A stretch of 64,000 bases of DNA from Photobacterium sp. TY1-4 (GTDB lineage: Bacteria > Pseudomonadota > Gammaproteobacteria > Enterobacterales > Vibrionaceae), in the NCBI RefSeq assembly GCF_025398175.1, contig NZ_CP099734.1, positions 62,001-126,000 of the forward strand. The letters run 5' to 3'. The position numbers and the translations under genes are program-made. Shown here one piece after another: positions 25,431 to 33,225 of this stretch. The notes below the pieces were generated by a model. That model ran no database searches and was not told the origin of the DNA. It saw nothing but the letters and a program-made list of their open reading frames with translations. The first letter of the stretch is position 1. The number at the start of each line of letters is the position of its first letter.

Positions 25431-25459
25431 TGATCGGATGTTCCGTCGTTATCCGCGGC

Positions 25460-26656
25460 TCAGGCGGTGTGCATCGCCGTTTGAGGAGACAATTGACGGC
25501 TGCAACCCCAGGCGCACAGCAGCACCGCGGCACCGGCAGCCAGGGTGACCCCAAACCCCTGCTGGACCCCGGCGATATCAATCACCCAGCCTGCAATCGC
25601 AGCGCCGGCGGCCACGCCGATCCCCAGGCCGGTGATCATCCAAGTCAGTCCCTCCGTTAACTGCGAGGCCGGCACCAGACGCTCGGCCAGCCCCATGGCA
25701 ATGATCATGGTCGGCGCAAAGAACAGTCCGGCCACAAATACCGTCACCGAGAGCGCCAGGATGCTGTTGACCGCCAGCAGCGGCAGGGTCATGGCGGCGG
25801 TGGCCGTGGCCGCTATCAGCAGCTGTTTCGACAGCGGCAGGCGAACGTTCATCGCCCCGAACACCAGTCCGGCCAGGCAAGAGCCGACGGCGTAGACCGA
25901 CAGCACCACACTGGCAGCGACCGGTTGCCCCTGCGCTTTGGCAAACGCCACGCTGATCACATCAATGGTGCCGACAATCATCCCCAGCGCCAGGAGCGCC
26001 AGAACCAGCAGTTTCATCGACAGGCTGGCTAAGGCTGAGCCCGTGTGGGATGTGGCAGCAGCCTGGATTGGGGGCTCCGTTTGTTTCTGCTGTACAAAAG
26101 CCAGGACGCCGACTGCCTGGAGCAGAGCGGCTGCCAGCGGACCGGCCTCCGGGAAGACGGCGACGCTGAGCCCGACGGCGAGCGGCGGACCGAGGATAAA
26201 GCAAACTTCATCGAGGACCGACTCAAAGGCATACGCTGTTTGTAGTTGCGGTGTGTCGCGGTAAATCGCCGTCCATCGCGCTCTCACCATCGCCGGCATA
26301 CTGGGCATACATCCGGCTAGGGCCGCCCAGACATAGAGGGTCCATGTCGGTGCCTGGAAATGGGTGCTCAGGAGCAGGAGCAGCATGCCCACCACACTGA
26401 TCGCGGTTGCGAAAGGCAGTACCCGGCATTGCCCGTAGCGATCGACGGCCCGTGAAATTTGCGGGGCAGCCACCGCCATGGTCAGGGTAAACGTGGCAGC
26501 AACGGTCCCGGCGAGCCAGTAGGAGCCTTGCAACTGTGACAGCATTGTAATCAGCCCGATCCCGGTCATTGAGATCGGCATCCGGGCAACCAGCCCCGCC
26601 AGTGAAAAAGCGACGGTCCCGGGCGCGTGGAATAAGGCGCGGTATGGGTTGGCCAT
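25460..26656 (-). CDS. Major facilitator superfamily efflux-type transporter
   Basis: A 398-residue protein with about twelve membrane segments. The start at 26656 is chosen because GGAGGTTTT precedes the ATG perfectly. The N-half has PISMTGIGLITML and a short basic loop between segments 2 and 3 (RAVDRYGQCR), the place where MFS motif A occurs. It diverges from a TetR regulator, with two palindromic operators between, the usual layout of a repressor-controlled exporter. Substrate is unknown. Confidence 0.88.
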   Translation of the reverse strand: MANPYRALFHAPGTVAFSLAGLVARMPISMTGIGLITMLSQLQGSYWLAGTVAATFTLTMAVAAPQISRAVDRYGQCRVLPFATAISVVGMLLLLLSTHFQAPTWTLYVWAALAGCMPSMPAMVRARWTAIYRDTPQLQTAYAFESVLDEVCFILGPPLAVGLSVAVFPEAGPLAAALLQAVGVLAFVQQKQTEPPIQAAATSHTGSALASLSMKLLVLALLALGMIVGTIDVISVAFAKAQGQPVAASVVLSVYAVGSCLAGLVFGAMNVRLPLSKQLLIAATATAAMTLPLLAVNSILALSVTVFVAGLFFAPTMIIAMGLAERLVPASQLTEGLTWMITGLGIGVAAGAAIAGWVIDIAGVQQGFGVTLAAGAAVLLCAWGCSRQLSPQTAMHTA

Positions 26657-26699
26657 AAAACCTCCAAAAAGTGATCGAAAGCGCCCTACGCAACAACTC

Positions 26700-26716
26700 A
26701 CATACGGGGCCTATGT
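26700..26716. promoter_or_regulatory. Second TetR operator (imperfect)
   Basis: ACATACG-GGG-CCTATGT has the same arm sequence and 3-base centre as the perfect site at 26725-26747, with one mismatch in the core arms. It lies nearer the MFS start. Two sites with centres 28 bases apart suggest cooperative or dual control. Confidence 0.65.
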
Positions 26717-26724
26717 AAAACTAA

Positions 26725-26747
26725 TTGACATACGCTCCGTATGTCAA
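26725..26747. promoter_or_regulatory. TetR operator (perfect palindrome)
   Basis: Ten-base arms TTGACATACG and CGTATGTCAA are exact complements around CTC. The site lies 37 bases before the tetR start and 69 bases before the MFS start. TTGACA at its left edge could double as a -35 element, which would explain repression. Confidence 0.8.
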
Positions 26748-26783
26748 ATATAACGAAGAAAAATCTTTGGCAGAGGAAAGACG

Positions 26784-27401
26784 ATGGCGCGTAAAACCCG
26801 TTCAGAAACCATGGCGGAGACACGGCAGAAATTGCTGTCGACCGGTCGCGAGCTCTTTGGCACGGTGGGGTATGCCGAAACGGTGATGGATGATCTGACC
26901 GCCAAGGTAGGGCTGACCCGCGGCGCGCTGTATCACCATTTCGGGGATAAAAAGGGGCTGTTTCTTGCTGTGCTGCAAGCTCTGGATGCTGACATGGATG
27001 CACGTCTGGCACATATTTCCGAGCAGGCACCTGATCCCTGGCAGGCATTCCAGCGCCGCTGCCGGGCCTATCTGGAGATGGCGACCGAGCCGGAAGTACA
27101 ACGGATCATGTTGCGTGATGCCGCGTCGGTGCTGGCGGCGGAGCAGTTGCAGGCGATGCAGCTCAACTGTGTGGCGTCGATCGCCGGGATGCTGGATGCG
27201 ATGATGCAACAGGGGTTGATCCCACCGGCTTCCCCGCAGATGTTGGCGCGTTTTATCAACGGCGGTTTGACGGAAACTGCGTTGTGGATTGCCCACAGCG
27301 AGGATGCCCCGGCAGCACTGACCGAGGCGCTGGCGGGTCTGGAGGTGTGGCTGGCCGGGCTGGTGGCCGCGCGGGCCGCCTCACTCTCAGCTCCTGAGTG
27401 A
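26784..27401 (+). CDS. TetR family repressor of the adjacent MFS gene
   Basis: A 205-residue protein. The N-terminal helix-turn-helix is typical: TRELFGTVGYAETVMDDLTAKVGLTRGALYHHFGDKKGLF (positions about 17-58, read in parts). The ligand-binding domain resembles the C-terminal domain of the QacR/AcrR-type group. It diverges from the MFS exporter and probably controls both genes through the two palindromes at 26700-26747. The inducer is unknown. Confidence 0.93.
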   Translation: MARKTRSETMAETRQKLLSTGRELFGTVGYAETVMDDLTAKVGLTRGALYHHFGDKKGLFLAVLQALDADMDARLAHISEQAPDPWQAFQRRCRAYLEMATEPEVQRIMLRDAASVLAAEQLQAMQLNCVASIAGMLDAMMQQGLIPPASPQMLARFINGGLTETALWIAHSEDAPAALTEALAGLEVWLAGLVAARAASLSAPE

Positions 27402-27423
27402 GCGGTGAGGTTGGGGTTGCATC

Positions 27424-28326
27424 TCAGCCGGAGCTCGCGTGGTAATAGGCCAGCACGTCTTCGATAAAGGTGCGCAGCTTAGCCGTGCGGTATTGGTCCC
27501 GGGTATAGAGTAAATGAACCGGCCGCGCCGGCCCTTCAAATTCAGGGAACAGGCGGATCAGCCGTCCGTCTGCCAGGGCATCGCGGACCATTACCTCGGG
27601 CGCCATGGCTATCCCGGCGCCACGCAGCGTTGCTGCGAGTAAAGCCGTACTTTCGTTGATGTTCAGCCGGGAGGTGATCGGGATTTTCACGCCGGGCTGC
27701 CCCGGTTGATGGAAATGCCACATCTGGCAGGTGCTGGCGTTGGCCAGCAGGTAGCTCAGGCATTCGTGGTGGTTCAACTGGTCCGGATGGGTCGGCGTGC
27801 CCGCTCGGGCGAGATAGCTCGGGGCAGCACAGGCCACCATCCGGTAAGGCGGTAGCGGTCGGGCGATCAGAGAGGAGTCCGGCAGCGTGCCGAAACGAAA
27901 CGCCGCTTCAAATCCTGCTTCATTCAGATCGACCCTACGGTCGGTCATCACCAGCTCCAGTTCAATCTCGGGATAGCGAGCCATGAAATCAGTGATAAAC
28001 GGCATCAGGCTGTAGGTTCCGAAGGTTTTCGGCGCGCTGATCTTCAGTTTTCCGCGCGGGATCTGATCCAGCTCCTGGGATAACCGCTCCGCTTCCCGCA
28101 CCGCACCGAGGATCTGCCGGCATCGTGCCAGGTATTGCTCGCCGAAGATCGTCAGGCTTTGCCTACGGGTGGTGCGGTTGAGCAGTTTAGCCCCCAGATG
28201 CTGCTCCAGCTGGGCAATTGATTTGGCCACCTGCTGCTGGGAGACACCGAGCTGCGCCCCGGCGGCAGTAAATGTGCCAGCCTCGACCGCGGCGACGAAA
28301 GTTTCCATACTCCGGAATCGATCCAT
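27424..28326 (-). CDS. LysR family transcriptional regulator
   Basis: About 300 residues from the ATG at 28326, giving MDRFRSMETFVAAVEAGTF; an in-frame ATG 33 bases upstream (28359) is possible, and neither has a good ribosome binding site. The winged helix-turn-helix reads FTAAGAQLGVSQQQVAKSIAQLE. The C-terminal part is the LysR substrate-binding fold (GKLKISAPKTFG, RFGTLPDSSLIARPL). It diverges from the NAD(P)-binding oxidoreductase gene, which it probably regulates, with about 150 bases between. Confidence 0.92.
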   Translation of the reverse strand: MDRFRSMETFVAAVEAGTFTAAGAQLGVSQQQVAKSIAQLEQHLGAKLLNRTTRRQSLTIFGEQYLARCRQILGAVREAERLSQELDQIPRGKLKISAPKTFGTYSLMPFITDFMARYPEIELELVMTDRRVDLNEAGFEAAFRFGTLPDSSLIARPLPPYRMVACAAPSYLARAGTPTHPDQLNHHECLSYLLANASTCQMWHFHQPGQPGVKIPITSRLNINESTALLAATLRGAGIAMAPEVMVRDALADGRLIRLFPEFEGPARPVHLLYTRDQYRTAKLRTFIEDVLAYYHASSG

Positions 28327-28474
28327 GATTAACAACTTTGGGTTGTGAGTTTTCAGCATGTTAGGCCATTTATGCTCAATTCGTAAATCAATAAGCTGTG
28401 CCTGTAGCTAGTTGCCGCAGCACTTTGTGACTGGCGGTTGTATCACGGACATGGATTGAAAGAGGAAAACGAGG

Positions 28475-29155
28475 ATGAAAATCGGAGTGATTGGTGCCGG
28501 GTTTGTCGGCCAGGCGGTCGGACGTTTGTTGCTCAAGGCCGGACACCAGGTGTTGCTGAGTAACTCGCGCGGGCCGCAGACCCTGTTCAGCTTGTATGGC
28601 GGGGTGCCGGGTTGTGAAATCGGCACGGTTGAACAGGCTTGTGAATATGGCGAGATGGTTCTGGTCGCTGTGCCGCTGGCCAGCTATCAGCAGCTCCCGC
28701 GCGACAAACTGGCCGGCAAGATTGTCCTGGATGCCGTGAATTATTATCCGGAACGCGATGGCCAGATCGCTGCGCTGGAGAATCGTCAAACCACGACCAG
28801 TGCGTTGTTGGCAGCGCATCTGGACCGGTCGGTGGTGGTGAAGGTGTTCAACGCCATTATGGCCCGGGATGTGGTGGTCGACGCCCGTCCGGCCGGGGAT
28901 GCGGAACGCCGCGCATTGCCGGTGGCCGGGGATGATCCGGTGGCGAAGGGTCAGGTGATCCGATTGCTGGACCAACTGGGCTACGATGCGGTCGATGCCG
29001 GTAGTCTGGCAGAGAGTTGGCGTTTTGAACGTTCAAAGCCGGCGTATTGTTTTCCGCAAAACATCGCGGCGTTGCAGCAGGCGCTGGCCGCTGCTGAGCG
29101 GGATGTGGCGTTGCCGCTGAGTGCCTGGCATGCGGTTTTACAGCGCGAGCTCTAG
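28475..29155 (+). CDS. NAD(P)-binding protein, F420-dependent NADP reductase-like
   Basis: A 226-residue Rossmann-fold protein beginning MKIGVIGAGFVGQAVGRLLLKAGH, with the next strand ending in SNSRG, a pattern that prefers NADP. It fits the NADPH-dependent F420 reductase-like family found in many bacteria that make no F420, so the true substrate is unknown. The conserved stretch KVFNAIMARD lies near residue 125. GAGGAAAACGAGG precedes the ATG. It is paired divergently with the LysR gene. Confidence 0.88.
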   Translation: MKIGVIGAGFVGQAVGRLLLKAGHQVLLSNSRGPQTLFSLYGGVPGCEIGTVEQACEYGEMVLVAVPLASYQQLPRDKLAGKIVLDAVNYYPERDGQIAALENRQTTTSALLAAHLDRSVVVKVFNAIMARDVVVDARPAGDAERRALPVAGDDPVAKGQVIRLLDQLGYDAVDAGSLAESWRFERSKPAYCFPQNIAALQQALAAAERDVALPLSAWHAVLQREL

Positions 29156-29200
29156 GGATCGCACCCGGCGGTGGTCATGCCGTTGGCCCCGCCCGGGATA

Positions 29201-29234
29201 TGACAGATGTCACGTTCGGGTGTGAAGAGTCACA
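29201..29234. promoter_or_regulatory. Paired palindromes upstream of lipoprotein 1
   Basis: TGACA-GA-TGTCA (29201-29212) and TGTGA-AGAG-TCACA (29221-29234) are both perfect inverted repeats. They recur at the same spacing before the second lipoprotein gene, where only the centres differ. The second has CRP-like arms but a centre of 4 rather than 6, so it is probably not a normal CRP site. Confidence 0.55.
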
Positions 29235-29328
29235 AAAATTAAACAAATGACTGTGATGGATGAATTATAACTGTTGAATTTGACTAGTCTGTTTTTTAGC
29301 CTGTTCAAAAATAACAAATAGGTTTCAT

Positions 29329-30744
29329 ATGAAGGTTAGTCAACACAACGCAATTCTTCCGCTGCTGATCAGCCTGGCGCTCGTCGGGTGTGGGGGTGGA
29401 GACAGCAACAATACAACACCAACGCCGGGGACGGGTACGCCGCCGGGGAGCGGTACACCCAATGCAGTGACGATTTCTGTCATTGACGGCTATCTGGGGG
29501 ATGCCCGTGTGTGCGTCGATCGCAATCAGAATCGCAGCTGTGATGCGGATGAATGGTTGGCCGCGGCCACTGATGCGCGAGGGCAAGTGCAGCTCGCTGA
29601 AGCGGATACCCAGTATGGGGTGATCGCGCAAATCAGTGCCGGTGAAACCCGGGACAGCGATCGCATCGGGTATGTCGCGACCTCGTATCAGCTGTATGCG
29701 TCCCCCGGCAGTGCGCAGGTGACGCCGTTTACCACGTTGGCGACCTTAAAAAACGTCTCCCTCTCGACGCTGGCGAGTCAGCTGAGTCTGCCGGAATCCG
29801 TGATCAGTGGGGATTTTGTGGCCCAGAAAGCGGGCAATCCGGATGCGGTATATGCCCACCTGATGGCGCGCAGCCTGGTACCGCAGTTGGCTGGCACACT
29901 TGCAGAAAACGATGTCCCAGCACTGGAGACGGAATTAGCGTTGATCAAGACTGAGATTGATCGCCAGGTCAACCTCGGCACCGATCTCAACGCCATTGAG
30001 GTGCGCATTGATCACCAGGGACAGGCGGTCACCAAACGGCTGACCGGGGATCTGGCCGGTTATCTGGATAACAAAAGCTTCTGGTTTATTCCGATGACGA
30101 ATGTTGATTTCATTCCGGTTCCGGTGACGTTCAAAGATCAAATCTATTCTTCGAGCATATCCGATCGTGTTTTTCCCTACACGGTTGAAGATAATGTTCT
30201 GCGTTTTGACCGTTTCAGTGACACCTTTATCCACGCTTCTGAGGATTTAGCCTTGAGTCTGAGCGAGGAAGGTCGGTTATATCTGTGGTCTGAGCAGGAT
30301 TTTTGGGAGCAGGTGCTACCGCTGACGGCGGAGCGCTTTGCCGGAAAAACCTGGTATCACCTGCGTGATTTAGGTTGGAGTGACACCGAGACGAAGCCTG
30401 CTTTGACAAAACTTGATTTCGCCGAGAACAATGGAGTGACTGTGACGCCGCAAGGAGAAGCGGCCATTACCGGCAGTTGGGAGATGGTGACGTTGACACT
30501 GGCCGACAAATCGACCTTACTGACCTTGAGAATCACCCTGCCGGAAGGCACCAATAGTGAGGGGTTGGCCGGGGAGACTCAGTGGACGCTGGGTGCTGTA
30601 CTCGATGCCGGTGAGTTGATCATGGTGTTCAATAACGATTCTGGGCTGGCTGCTGATGATCTCCTGTTCCAGGATCCTGCATTTGCCCGGTCTGTCGCCG
30701 AGGCGTGGGTGGCTGCGGTCACGGCTGCGAATAATGCATCTTAG
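29329..30744 (+). CDS. Predicted lipoprotein, paralogue 1
   Basis: A 471-residue protein with a lipoprotein signal peptide: ISLALVGCGGG gives lipobox LVGC, then a Ser/Asn/Thr/Pro/Gly linker (residues about 25-50). The next domain has VIDGYLGDARVCVDRNQNRSCDADEWL, in which D-x-N-x-N-x-S-x-D-x-x-E fits an EF-hand-type calcium loop, with two Cys near it. The rest has no recognised fold and ends FQDPAFARSVAEAWVAAVTAANNAS. The N-terminal half is nearly identical to the gene at 31129-32496. Likely anchored to the outer membrane; function unknown. Confidence 0.85.
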   Translation: MKVSQHNAILPLLISLALVGCGGGDSNNTTPTPGTGTPPGSGTPNAVTISVIDGYLGDARVCVDRNQNRSCDADEWLAAATDARGQVQLAEADTQYGVIAQISAGETRDSDRIGYVATSYQLYASPGSAQVTPFTTLATLKNVSLSTLASQLSLPESVISGDFVAQKAGNPDAVYAHLMARSLVPQLAGTLAENDVPALETELALIKTEIDRQVNLGTDLNAIEVRIDHQGQAVTKRLTGDLAGYLDNKSFWFIPMTNVDFIPVPVTFKDQIYSSSISDRVFPYTVEDNVLRFDRFSDTFIHASEDLALSLSEEGRLYLWSEQDFWEQVLPLTAERFAGKTWYHLRDLGWSDTETKPALTKLDFAENNGVTVTPQGEAAITGSWEMVTLTLADKSTLLTLRITLPEGTNSEGLAGETQWTLGAVLDAGELIMVFNNDSGLAADDLLFQDPAFARSVAEAWVAAVTAANNAS

Positions 30745-30777
30745 CCGTCAATCAGTCCTGTTGCCGGAACGTGCCCG

Positions 30778-30920
30778 TTAGGGGGCGACCGGCGCCATAA
30801 GATCTGAAATGCCCCCGTCTGAAACGCTGGCTGTGCTGCCAGCAATGGGTTCTCGGCAGCAAAGTGGCCGTTGCCAGAAATGGCTGTGGCAAAAGTTCAG
30901 TACCAGAGGCTCCGGCAGCG
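30778..30920 (-). pseudogene. Truncated 3' fragment of a tetR gene
   Basis: This stretch matches the last 155 or so bases of the intact tetR gene at 32529-33164, including its stop codon, but lacks the 10 bases ACAAGCCCTG near the end and so is frameshifted. It has no start or DNA-binding domain. It is the scar of the tandem duplication and shows that the right breakpoint fell inside tetR. Confidence 0.88.
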
Positions 30921-31000
30921 CATTAGTCGTCGATGGTGAGGGTGTTTACGCCATGTGGCCCGAGATGTGGCGGTCATGCCGTTGGCCCCGCTCGGGGATA

Positions 31001-31034
31001 TGACAAATGTCACGTTCGGCTGTGAAGGGTCACA
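31001..31034. promoter_or_regulatory. Paired palindromes upstream of lipoprotein 2
   Basis: TGACA-AA-TGTCA and TGTGA-AGGG-TCACA, at the same spacing as in the left copy. Arms are kept while centres have changed, which suggests selection on the arms, although the copies are young enough that chance is possible. Confidence 0.5.
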
Positions 31035-31128
31035 AAAATTAAACAAATTGCTGTGATAGGTGAATTATTACTGTTGAATTTGACCAGTCTATTTTTTAGC
31101 CTGTTAAAAAATAATCAATAGGTTTCAT

Positions 31129-32496
31129 ATGAAGATTAGCAAATACAACATAAGTAAACGTCACCTAAGCCTCCCGCTGCTGATCAGCCTGGCGCTCGTC
31201 GGGTGTGGCGGTGGAGATGACAATGCGGCGCCCAAAGTCACGGTGATTGATGGTTACCTGAGTGATGCCCGTGTGTGTGTCGATCGCAATCAGAATCGCA
31301 GCTGTGATGCAGATGAATGGTTGGCCGCGGCCACTGATGCGCAAGGGCAAGTGCAGCTCGCTGAAGCGGATACCCAGTATGGGGTGATCGCGCAAATCAG
31401 TGCCGGTGAAACCCGGGACAACGATCGCATCGGGTATGTCGCGACCTCGTATCAGCTGTATGCGGCCCCCGGCAGCGCGCAGGTGACGCCGTTTACCACG
31501 TTGGCGACCTTAAAAAACGTCTCCCTCTCGACGCTGGCGAGTCAGTTGAATCTGCCGGAATCGGTGATCGGCGGGGATTTTGTGGCCCAAAAAGCGGGCA
31601 ATCCGGATGCGGTATATGCCCACCTGATGGCGCGCAGCCTGGTACCGCAATTGGCAGAATCGCTTGCTGAAAACAATGTTACGGCACTGGAGACCGAATT
31701 AGCGTTGATCAAGACCGAGATTGATCGCCAGGTCAACCTCGGCACCGATCTCAACGCCATTGAGGTGCGCATTGATCACCAGGGACAGGCGGTCACCAAA
31801 CGGCTGACCGGGGAACTGGCCGGTTATCTGGATAACAAAAGCTTCTGGTATATTCCGTTGTCGAATAGTGACCATATCCTTAATAAAATAATTTTGGAAG
31901 ATCAGCTGTATAAGTCGGGTATGTACGGCAAAGATATCCCGTATACCGTTGAGGATAATGTCCTGAAATTTTACCTGTTCAGTGACACTTTTATCCACGC
32001 CACGGAAGATTTAGCCTTGAGCCTGAGCGAGGATGGTCGGTTGTGTCTGTGGTCTGAGCAAGATTTTGAGACGCGAGTACTCCCGCTGACTGCGGCGCGT
32101 TTTGCAGGAAAAACCTGGTATCACCTGCGTGATTTAGGGCAAAAAACGCCGGAGATGAAGCCGATCCTGACCAAGCTTGCATTGGCTGAGGACGGTACAG
32201 TGACAGTCACCCCGCAAGGGGAGGCCGCGGTGAGCGGTCAATGGGAGATGGTGGCCTTAAAGGACTCGACCCATTTGGGGCTGAAAATTACCTTGCCCCC
32301 AGAGACGAACAGCGCCGGTTTAGGCGGAGAAACTGAATGGACGCTCAGTGCCTCGCTTGATGCCGGAGAGCTGATGATTGTCAATAATGAAGGCTCTGCG
32401 TTGAAGGCCGATAACCTGCTGTTCCAGGATCCGGCGTTTGCCCGGTCCGTCGCCGAGGCGTGGGTGGCTGCGGTCACGGCCGCGAATGCGTCTTAG
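31129..32496 (+). CDS. Predicted lipoprotein, paralogue 2
   Basis: A 455-residue paralogue of the previous lipoprotein, with lipobox LVGC and a shorter linker. Residues about 40-235 are almost identical to paralogue 1, including the EF-hand-like loop D-R-N-Q-N-R-S-C-D-A-D-E. A short patch after NKSFW differs sharply (YIPLSNSDHILNKIILEDQ against FIPMTNVDFIPVPVTFKDQ), then similarity returns at YTVEDNVL. The C-terminus is again FQDPAFARSVAEAWVAA. It converges on the tetR gene. Function unknown; probably a surface or periplasmic-face lipoprotein. Confidence 0.85.
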   Translation: MKISKYNISKRHLSLPLLISLALVGCGGGDDNAAPKVTVIDGYLSDARVCVDRNQNRSCDADEWLAAATDAQGQVQLAEADTQYGVIAQISAGETRDNDRIGYVATSYQLYAAPGSAQVTPFTTLATLKNVSLSTLASQLNLPESVIGGDFVAQKAGNPDAVYAHLMARSLVPQLAESLAENNVTALETELALIKTEIDRQVNLGTDLNAIEVRIDHQGQAVTKRLTGELAGYLDNKSFWYIPLSNSDHILNKIILEDQLYKSGMYGKDIPYTVEDNVLKFYLFSDTFIHATEDLALSLSEDGRLCLWSEQDFETRVLPLTAARFAGKTWYHLRDLGQKTPEMKPILTKLALAEDGTVTVTPQGEAAVSGQWEMVALKDSTHLGLKITLPPETNSAGLGGETEWTLSASLDAGELMIVNNEGSALKADNLLFQDPAFARSVAEAWVAAVTAANAS

Positions 32497-32528
32497 CCGC
32501 CAACCAGTTTGTTGCCGGGACGTGCCCG

Positions 32529-33164
32529 TTAGGGGGCGACCGGCGACAAGCCCTGCCATAAGATCTGAAATGCTCCCGCTTGAAACTCTGGCTGCGCTGC
32601 CAGCGCCGGGCTCTCGGCAAACAGAGCGGCCGTTGCCAGGAAATGGCTGTGGCAAAAGTTCAATACCAGAGGCTCCGGCAGCGGCGCGATCTGTCCTGCT
32701 GCCCGGGCCTGGGTGAGTAACGCAATTAAATAAGTCATCGACGTCGCCATCAGCGCGCGATGTTGTTCACTGCTGCAGTAAGGGTTGTGGGCCATGTGCT
32801 GCATAAAGCGGATCTTGTCCGGATGGCGCTGGGCCCAGGTCAGAGCCTGTTGCCAGCAATCACTCACTTTGTCCCGGAGTTCCTCGCAGGTTGGCGCGGG
32901 TTGCATCACCTGGCCGAGCTCGGTTTTCACCATCTGGTACAGGGCGAGGATCAGTTCCTGTTTGTTGGCAAAGTGGTGAAACAGGGTGCCGGTTGCCACA
33001 TCGGCCTGTTTGGCGATGCTGGCGGTGGACGTAGCCTCGATCCCCTGCTGGGCAAACAGGGTCAGCGCGGCGTTGAGGATTTGCTGTTTCTTGTGGGTCA
33101 TCGTGCTGCCGCTGGTCATGCATTTACTCGTCATGCTGTTGTGAGTGATGGTCCTGCCGGACAT
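32529..33164 (-). CDS. TetR family regulator, downstream of the aldehyde dehydrogenase
   Basis: About 211 residues if started at 33164; shorter starts at 33134, 33119 and 33101 are possible, and none has a clear ribosome binding site. The helix-turn-helix part reads ALTLFAQQGIEATSTASIAKQADVATGTLFHHFANKQEL in sections. It lies 61 bases after the aldehyde dehydrogenase gene on the same strand. The operator-like palindrome at 34710-34733 would let it control both genes. Its 3' end was copied into the duplication scar at 30778-30920. Confidence 0.88.
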   Translation of the reverse strand: MSGRTITHNSMTSKCMTSGSTMTHKKQQILNAALTLFAQQGIEATSTASIAKQADVATGTLFHHFANKQELILALYQMVKTELGQVMQPAPTCEELRDKVSDCWQQALTWAQRHPDKIRFMQHMAHNPYCSSEQHRALMATSMTYLIALLTQARAAGQIAPLPEPLVLNFCHSHFLATAALFAESPALAAQPEFQAGAFQILWQGLSPVAP

Positions 33165-33225
33165 TATGGAATACTCGCGATGGATCCTATCATGGCGGCC
33201 CTGCATAGAGCAGGGCCGGGATGTG

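Follow-up and report, generated by a model that had tools for sequence, protein, structure and literature searches.

A tandem lipoprotein gene pair in Photobacterium sp. TY1-4 with a decayed short-homology joint and a divergent C-terminal segment

Short-homology duplication and exchange between tandem paralogs are known kinds of event in bacteria. According to the excerpts of the reports drawn on here, spontaneous duplications in Salmonella have joints with a few shared bases, the 7- and 9-base duplication candidates among them being unverified (PMC3411829); in the neighbouring paralogs PE_PGRS17 and PE_PGRS18 a block of differences moves between the genes by gene conversion, with strains varying in which copy carries it (PMC1762029); and concerted evolution has been described for paralogs of prokaryotes (PMC6053082). 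The present analysis concerns a pair of adjacent lipoprotein genes in Photobacterium sp. TY1-4 (genome of 5.6 Mb in four contigs), located in a stretch of 64,000 nucleotides (contig NZ_CP099734.1, positions 62,001 to 126,000), hereafter the window, in whose own numbering all window coordinates are given. The closest named protein matches of the lipoprotein are from Photobacterium, and literature searches yielded no title or abstract opening on this locus. The pair is probably the product of a short-homology tandem duplication that was followed by decay at the joint and then by replacement of the C-terminal segment of one copy through recombination with a divergent allele.

As far as those excerpts go, the locus shares with the Salmonella rearrangements a short-homology duplication joint and differs from them in being old, with both copies having counterparts in a second strain and the joint being decayed; its 7 shared bases lie at the short end of the Salmonella set (PMC3411829). 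Like PE_PGRS17/PE_PGRS18, it is a tandem pair with segment exchange and with strain differences in which copy carries the segment; in Photobacterium, however, the segment, which is located in a half of the protein predicted as a structural unit, is more divergent than the gene's surroundings are from one species to another (PMC1762029). With the excerpted account of concerted evolution it has in common that one part of the gene is much closer between the copies than to other species, but here this is explained by a fairly young duplication rather than by homogenisation over the long term, and the remainder of the gene shows the reverse pattern (PMC6053082).

Local alignment (score 1943) pairs the direct copies at 29170-30920 and 30969-32683 along their entire length, in confirmed head-to-tail orientation, and DNA-level matches to copy 1 in its own genome are found only at these two places. 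Each contains a leader, a complete lipoprotein open reading frame (ORF) and the 3' end of a tetR gene that reads leftward, the similarity between the copies stopping within tetR, at 30920/32683. Copy 1 comprises a leader at 29170-29328, a lipoprotein ORF of 471 amino acids at 29329-30744 (forward strand) and a dead tetR fragment at 30745-30920 (reverse strand), which lacks the 5' part, has a 10-base deletion and other gaps, and in no frame matches the intact C-terminus all the way. Copy 2 has its leader at 30969-31128 and a lipoprotein ORF of 455 amino acids at 31129-32496 (forward strand), followed by the intact tetR at 32529-33206 (reverse strand; TetR_N, E 3e-17), so that the gene order is lipoprotein, tetR fragment, lipoprotein, intact tetR. 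A sequence-only reading had already described two matching blocks, whose ends lie within 3 bases of those of the alignment, together with the 10-base deletion and the ending of the left copy within tetR, both of which can be seen in the alignment; its proposal of one tandem duplication with a breakpoint within tetR is supported by the gene order and by the joint. Identity is uneven along the copies, with 96% over 300 nucleotides in the first half and 79% over 241 and 75% over 206 nucleotides in the second.

The bases between the copies, 30921-30971, had been taken for a spacer without a match in the window, but they are what decay and an internal deletion have left of a copy of the upstream oxidoreductase gene, whose intact parent is an ORF of the NADP/F420 type at 28475-29155 on the forward strand (PF03807, Pfam E 2.4e-15). 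They align to the 3' half of this gene with a score of 45, the best other place in the window reaching 23 (700-base tiles, both strands), and 500 shuffles of the spacer aligned to the oxidoreductase gene region alone scored no higher than 28; an origin as foreign or filler DNA is ruled out by this match. Over its full extent (30914-30975) the relic corresponds to 28810-28879; of the 62 columns without a gap 8 are mismatched, and a further 8 columns contain gaps. At the joint, GGCAGCG (30914-30920), tetR can be read up to this word on the left and the oxidoreductase gene from it on the right, the same word being present at the right breakpoint in tetR (32677-32683) and at the left breakpoint in the oxidoreductase gene (28810-28816). 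At 30969 the relic skips from GGTGGTC at 28873-28879 to a second GGTGGTC at 29170-29176, a loss of 297 bases whose own joint is GGCGGTC, the first 7 bases of the copy 2 leader. The original unit therefore measured about 2104 bases, with breakpoints in tetR and in the oxidoreductase gene and both outer genes left intact; the 1.7 kb of the sequence-only reading was too short, since the spacer is the other end of a unit of about 2.1 kb with a later deletion. When 200000 breakpoint pairs were drawn at random, 126 of them shared at least seven bases. On reading the sequence, with no dedicated search, no mobile element was noticed, and the only shared word seen at the joint is the 7-base one.

It is extremely improbable that the arrangement reflects two unrelated insertions or an assembly artefact, for which no support was found: the joint holds pieces of both flanking genes in the order expected of a duplication, the copies differ at about 20% of sites, and a second strain has counterparts of both proteins. 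The case that the sequence-only reading had set against itself, that of two old genes placed independently, is contradicted by the relic and the tetR fragment and is ruled out, as the joint carries the ends of both flanking genes; the C-terminal segment, taken alone, does look old.

A single-copy state, which that reading had proposed to look for in relatives, is present at locus L039, where a flavoprotein gene, one lipoprotein gene, tetR and an aldehyde dehydrogenase gene follow one another, the lipoprotein gene thus lying between the same neighbours as the window pair. The lipoprotein ORF of L039 contains the entire NCBI P. atrarenae protein P0005, and similarity to L039 starts at the identical base, 9165, for both window copies. 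Among the 52 genomes of the genus set, lipoprotein relatives of at least 77% identity were found only in the own genome (two copies) and in genome G004 (one copy), and any lipoprotein match at 1e-30 in 30. Two contig scans for closer genomes gave no relative and four distant loci (32-48% identity over the best segment), in a collection that may omit records very near the window, and of the plasmid records five were matched, with the best-ranked match spanning 57% of the query and showing 24.7% identity. As read from the sequences themselves, then, both breakpoints, the joint, the loss between the GGTGGTC repeats and the single copy in the nearest genome compared are directly visible.

The genome of L039 is without a 3.75-kb block at this place (25441-29195 in the window), which carries MFS (major facilitator superfamily), TetR, LysR and oxidoreductase genes and has a GC content of 60.9%, compared with 56.5% for the window. 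Own genome included, the oxidoreductase occurs in 2 of the 52 genomes (1e-20) and the MFS gene in 8 (1e-60); the block therefore looks accessory and was likely acquired, and it was present when the duplication happened. Since it also lacks the oxidoreductase block, L039 is not the immediate predecessor of the duplicated locus.

The duplication can be dated by several parts of the unit. Between the copies, 15 of 159 bases differ in the leader and 17 of 178 at the 3' end, and codon columns 60-256 of the lipoprotein gene have a synonymous divergence (dS) of 0.116; together with the relic these near-neutral parts agree at about 0.09-0.13. Six flanking genes compared between the window and L039 have dS values of 0.46-0.73, so that the duplication, at about 0.1, postdates the split between these two species. 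On the scale of strains it is not new, as both copies have counterparts in Photobacterium strain MCCC 1A19761, P0002 (VV869_10650) for copy 1 and P0001 (VV869_10660) for copy 2, both known as proteins from a search that scored the best 7999 candidates and that also yielded P0003; the word "recent" used in the sequence-only reading is to that extent unsupported. A different history would make the duplication old, with its age given by the C-terminal segment (dS about 1.3), and have the leader, most of the N-terminal part and the 3' end re-homogenised by repeated gene conversion. Gene conversion between tandem copies is a known process in the excerpted reports (PMC1762029, PMC6053082), the identity of the N-terminal part between the copies (90-96%) nearly matches that between the strains (93-100%), and the higher divergence of columns 180-210 and of the first 60 columns fits patchy conversion. 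However, the relic, a sequence outside the lipoprotein copies, has diverged about as little as the leader and the 3' end, so that separate conversions would need to give one age. We regard this history as improbable, though it is the strongest of the alternatives.

The C-terminal segment behaves differently from the rest of the gene. In columns 256-450 the copies have a dS of 1.26 and a nonsynonymous divergence (dN) of 0.26, the former above the flanking-gene baseline between the window and L039. Synonymous differences between the copies amount to 16 at 149 sites in columns 60-256 versus 82 at 134 sites in columns 256-450 (Fisher p 9.7e-20), whereas the differences from L039 are spread evenly over the two parts (p 0.47 and 0.12). 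None of 20000 shuffles reproduced the observed stretch of 54 codons without a synonymous difference. That constraint produced the steps in identity can be ruled out, both from the synonymous sites and because the pattern relative to L039 is even. Compared with L039 over columns 256-450, copy 1 has a dS of 0.70 and copy 2 of 1.05; copy 1 is thus at ortholog distance from L039 and copy 2 is not, which also speaks against an old duplication kept alike by gene conversion. The segment of copy 1 (30082-30663, forward strand) is referred to as the A type, nearer to the P. atrarenae-like allele, and that of copy 2 (31846-32418, forward strand) as the divergent B type, lying within the predicted beta-rich half. 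Just before the segment, the stretches 29944-30081 and 31708-31845 are unusually alike, also to the other species (dS 0.25-0.29 versus 0.46-0.73 in flanking genes), as if they were a crossover zone.

Protein trees of the two parts, built from 8 proteins over 204 (N) and 221 (C) columns, reject each other, with approximately unbiased test p values of 1.1e-4 on the N data and 5.0e-8 on the C data. In the N tree P0003 and P0005 form a pair (100), and the four window and MCCC proteins stand on short branches. The C tree unites copy 2, P0001, P0003 and P0002 in a single group (100), with copy 1 on the side of P0005, and the B type groups with P0003 (ultrafast bootstrap 99), the protein of another lineage, a possible donor-side allele known as a protein only. 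Identity between copy 1 and its MCCC counterpart is 96-98% as far as column 256, falls to 55-74% over columns 256-430 and is back at 97-100% beyond them; between copy 2 and its counterpart it stays within 89-100% in all blocks. Fast evolution of the C-terminal segment of one copy after the duplication, under relaxed or diversifying selection and without exchange, might be suggested by the high amino-acid change (the dN given above), but the synonymous divergence of the segment is about ten times that of columns 60-256, which selection on the protein does not readily produce, and the B type groups with a protein of another lineage; we consider such a course very unlikely.

The favoured history, duplication followed by exchange, would thus run as follows. 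A single tandem duplication of about 2.1 kb, from the interior of the oxidoreductase gene to the interior of tetR and joined at a 7-base homology, would have doubled the lipoprotein gene; the intact oxidoreductase and tetR genes survive at the outer ends, the two gene ends trapped at the joint decayed, and 297 bases were later lost between the GGTGGTC repeats in copy 2. The C-terminal segment of one copy, some 190 codons, would then have been replaced via homologous recombination in the conserved flanks, the incoming segment being a divergent allele that may circulate in related Photobacterium. Judging from the distances to L039, copy 2 probably changed first, before the two known strains split, and copy 1 of MCCC 1A19761 would have been exchanged again later. 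Replacement of the segment by homologous recombination, more than once, is the simplest account, and import from outside is more likely than transfer from copy to copy.

Several observations weigh against this history or blur it. The clocks have wide intervals (0.05-0.21 for the relic); without the 14 columns of its two defining repeats the relic differs at 7 of 48 positions, and wider stretches running into the unmatched ends give 22/168 and 28/193. The dS of 0.116 excludes the first 60 columns, in which the signal peptide has a dS of 0.39 on 27 codons and the linker, 11 codons with indels, is not computable; within the N-terminal part, columns 180-210 reach 0.42, and the last 20 codons, from column 455 onwards, give 0.33. 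These divergent first, middle and last columns leave room for some conversion, for more than one exchange or for changes of another kind. In columns 60-256, too, copy 2 looks more derived than copy 1, since at 18 sites only copy 1 agrees with L039 and at 8 only copy 2. The N tree resolves the four window and MCCC proteins weakly (51-63) and hangs the outgroup, again weakly (61), on the copy 2 side. Finally, the exchange suggested by the comparison of strains is read from protein sequence.

The joint is a well-preserved record of a bacterial tandem duplication forming and then eroding, with breakpoints, short homology and later deletion all readable. Taken with the domain exchange, it offers a compact natural case in which to ask whether duplication can let a genome keep two diverged alleles of one domain. 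It is also a warning that the age of paralogs cannot be read from whole-gene identity, the 80% found here being a mixture of synonymous divergences of about 0.1 and about 1.3.

Both lipoproteins have a signal peptide ending in the lipobox LALVGC, judged by eye against the lipobox consensus, with the cysteine of LVGC at Cys21 in copy 1 and Cys26 in copy 2. The protein has no Pfam family above the cut-off, and sequence searches against Pfam, NCBIfam and the PDB gave it no name, NCBIfam NF058595 matching weakly in 6 of 13 members (best E 3.1e-4); Foldseek against the PDB gave no match at E 0.001, either with the whole protein or with its C-terminal half. That half is predicted to be beta-rich and lipocalin-like, and the pair would then supply a single cell with two forms of what may be a binding domain, each behind a similar leader. 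It is conceivable, though we put it forward only tentatively, that the lipocalin-like half is an exchangeable cassette traded between Photobacterium species and that the duplication locked the competing alleles A and B into one genome; equally speculative is the extension that this would be the bacterial equivalent of fixed heterozygosity, with selection for two binding specificities maintaining both alleles.

Six loci (L040-L045) were considered as possible recurrent cases of such a tandem pair, a reading that was rejected. At L040 and L041, in two further Photobacterium genomes, relatives similar in length lie next to each other, and the proportion of synonymous differences (pS) between them is at least 0.45 in every 60-column block, so these pairs of the same lipoprotein family are older, and in them, too, the first half is better conserved than the second. 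At L042-L044 the neighbour has about 1,070-1,080 amino acids, and L045 has one relative only.

A scan for promoters and terminators returned 3 and 1 sites, shuffled sequences giving 2.5 and 4.3. Both window copies have kept a palindrome, TGACAGATGTCA at 29201-29212 in copy 1 and TGACAAATGTCA at 31001-31012 in copy 2, which is also present in L039 (9170-9181); this sequence, TGACANNTGTCA, resembles a CRP box and may be a CRP-like site. As a family-wide control site it was rejected, since 41 of 49 loci are without it and the eight carriers are all the window's own region or that of L039. It occurs at 11 places in the own genome, and the nine outside the leaders have mixed neighbours. One of the 11, at position 1432 of locus L050, is just upstream of a gene that, by eye, resembles a GntR/MocR regulator, beside a third member of the lipoprotein family.

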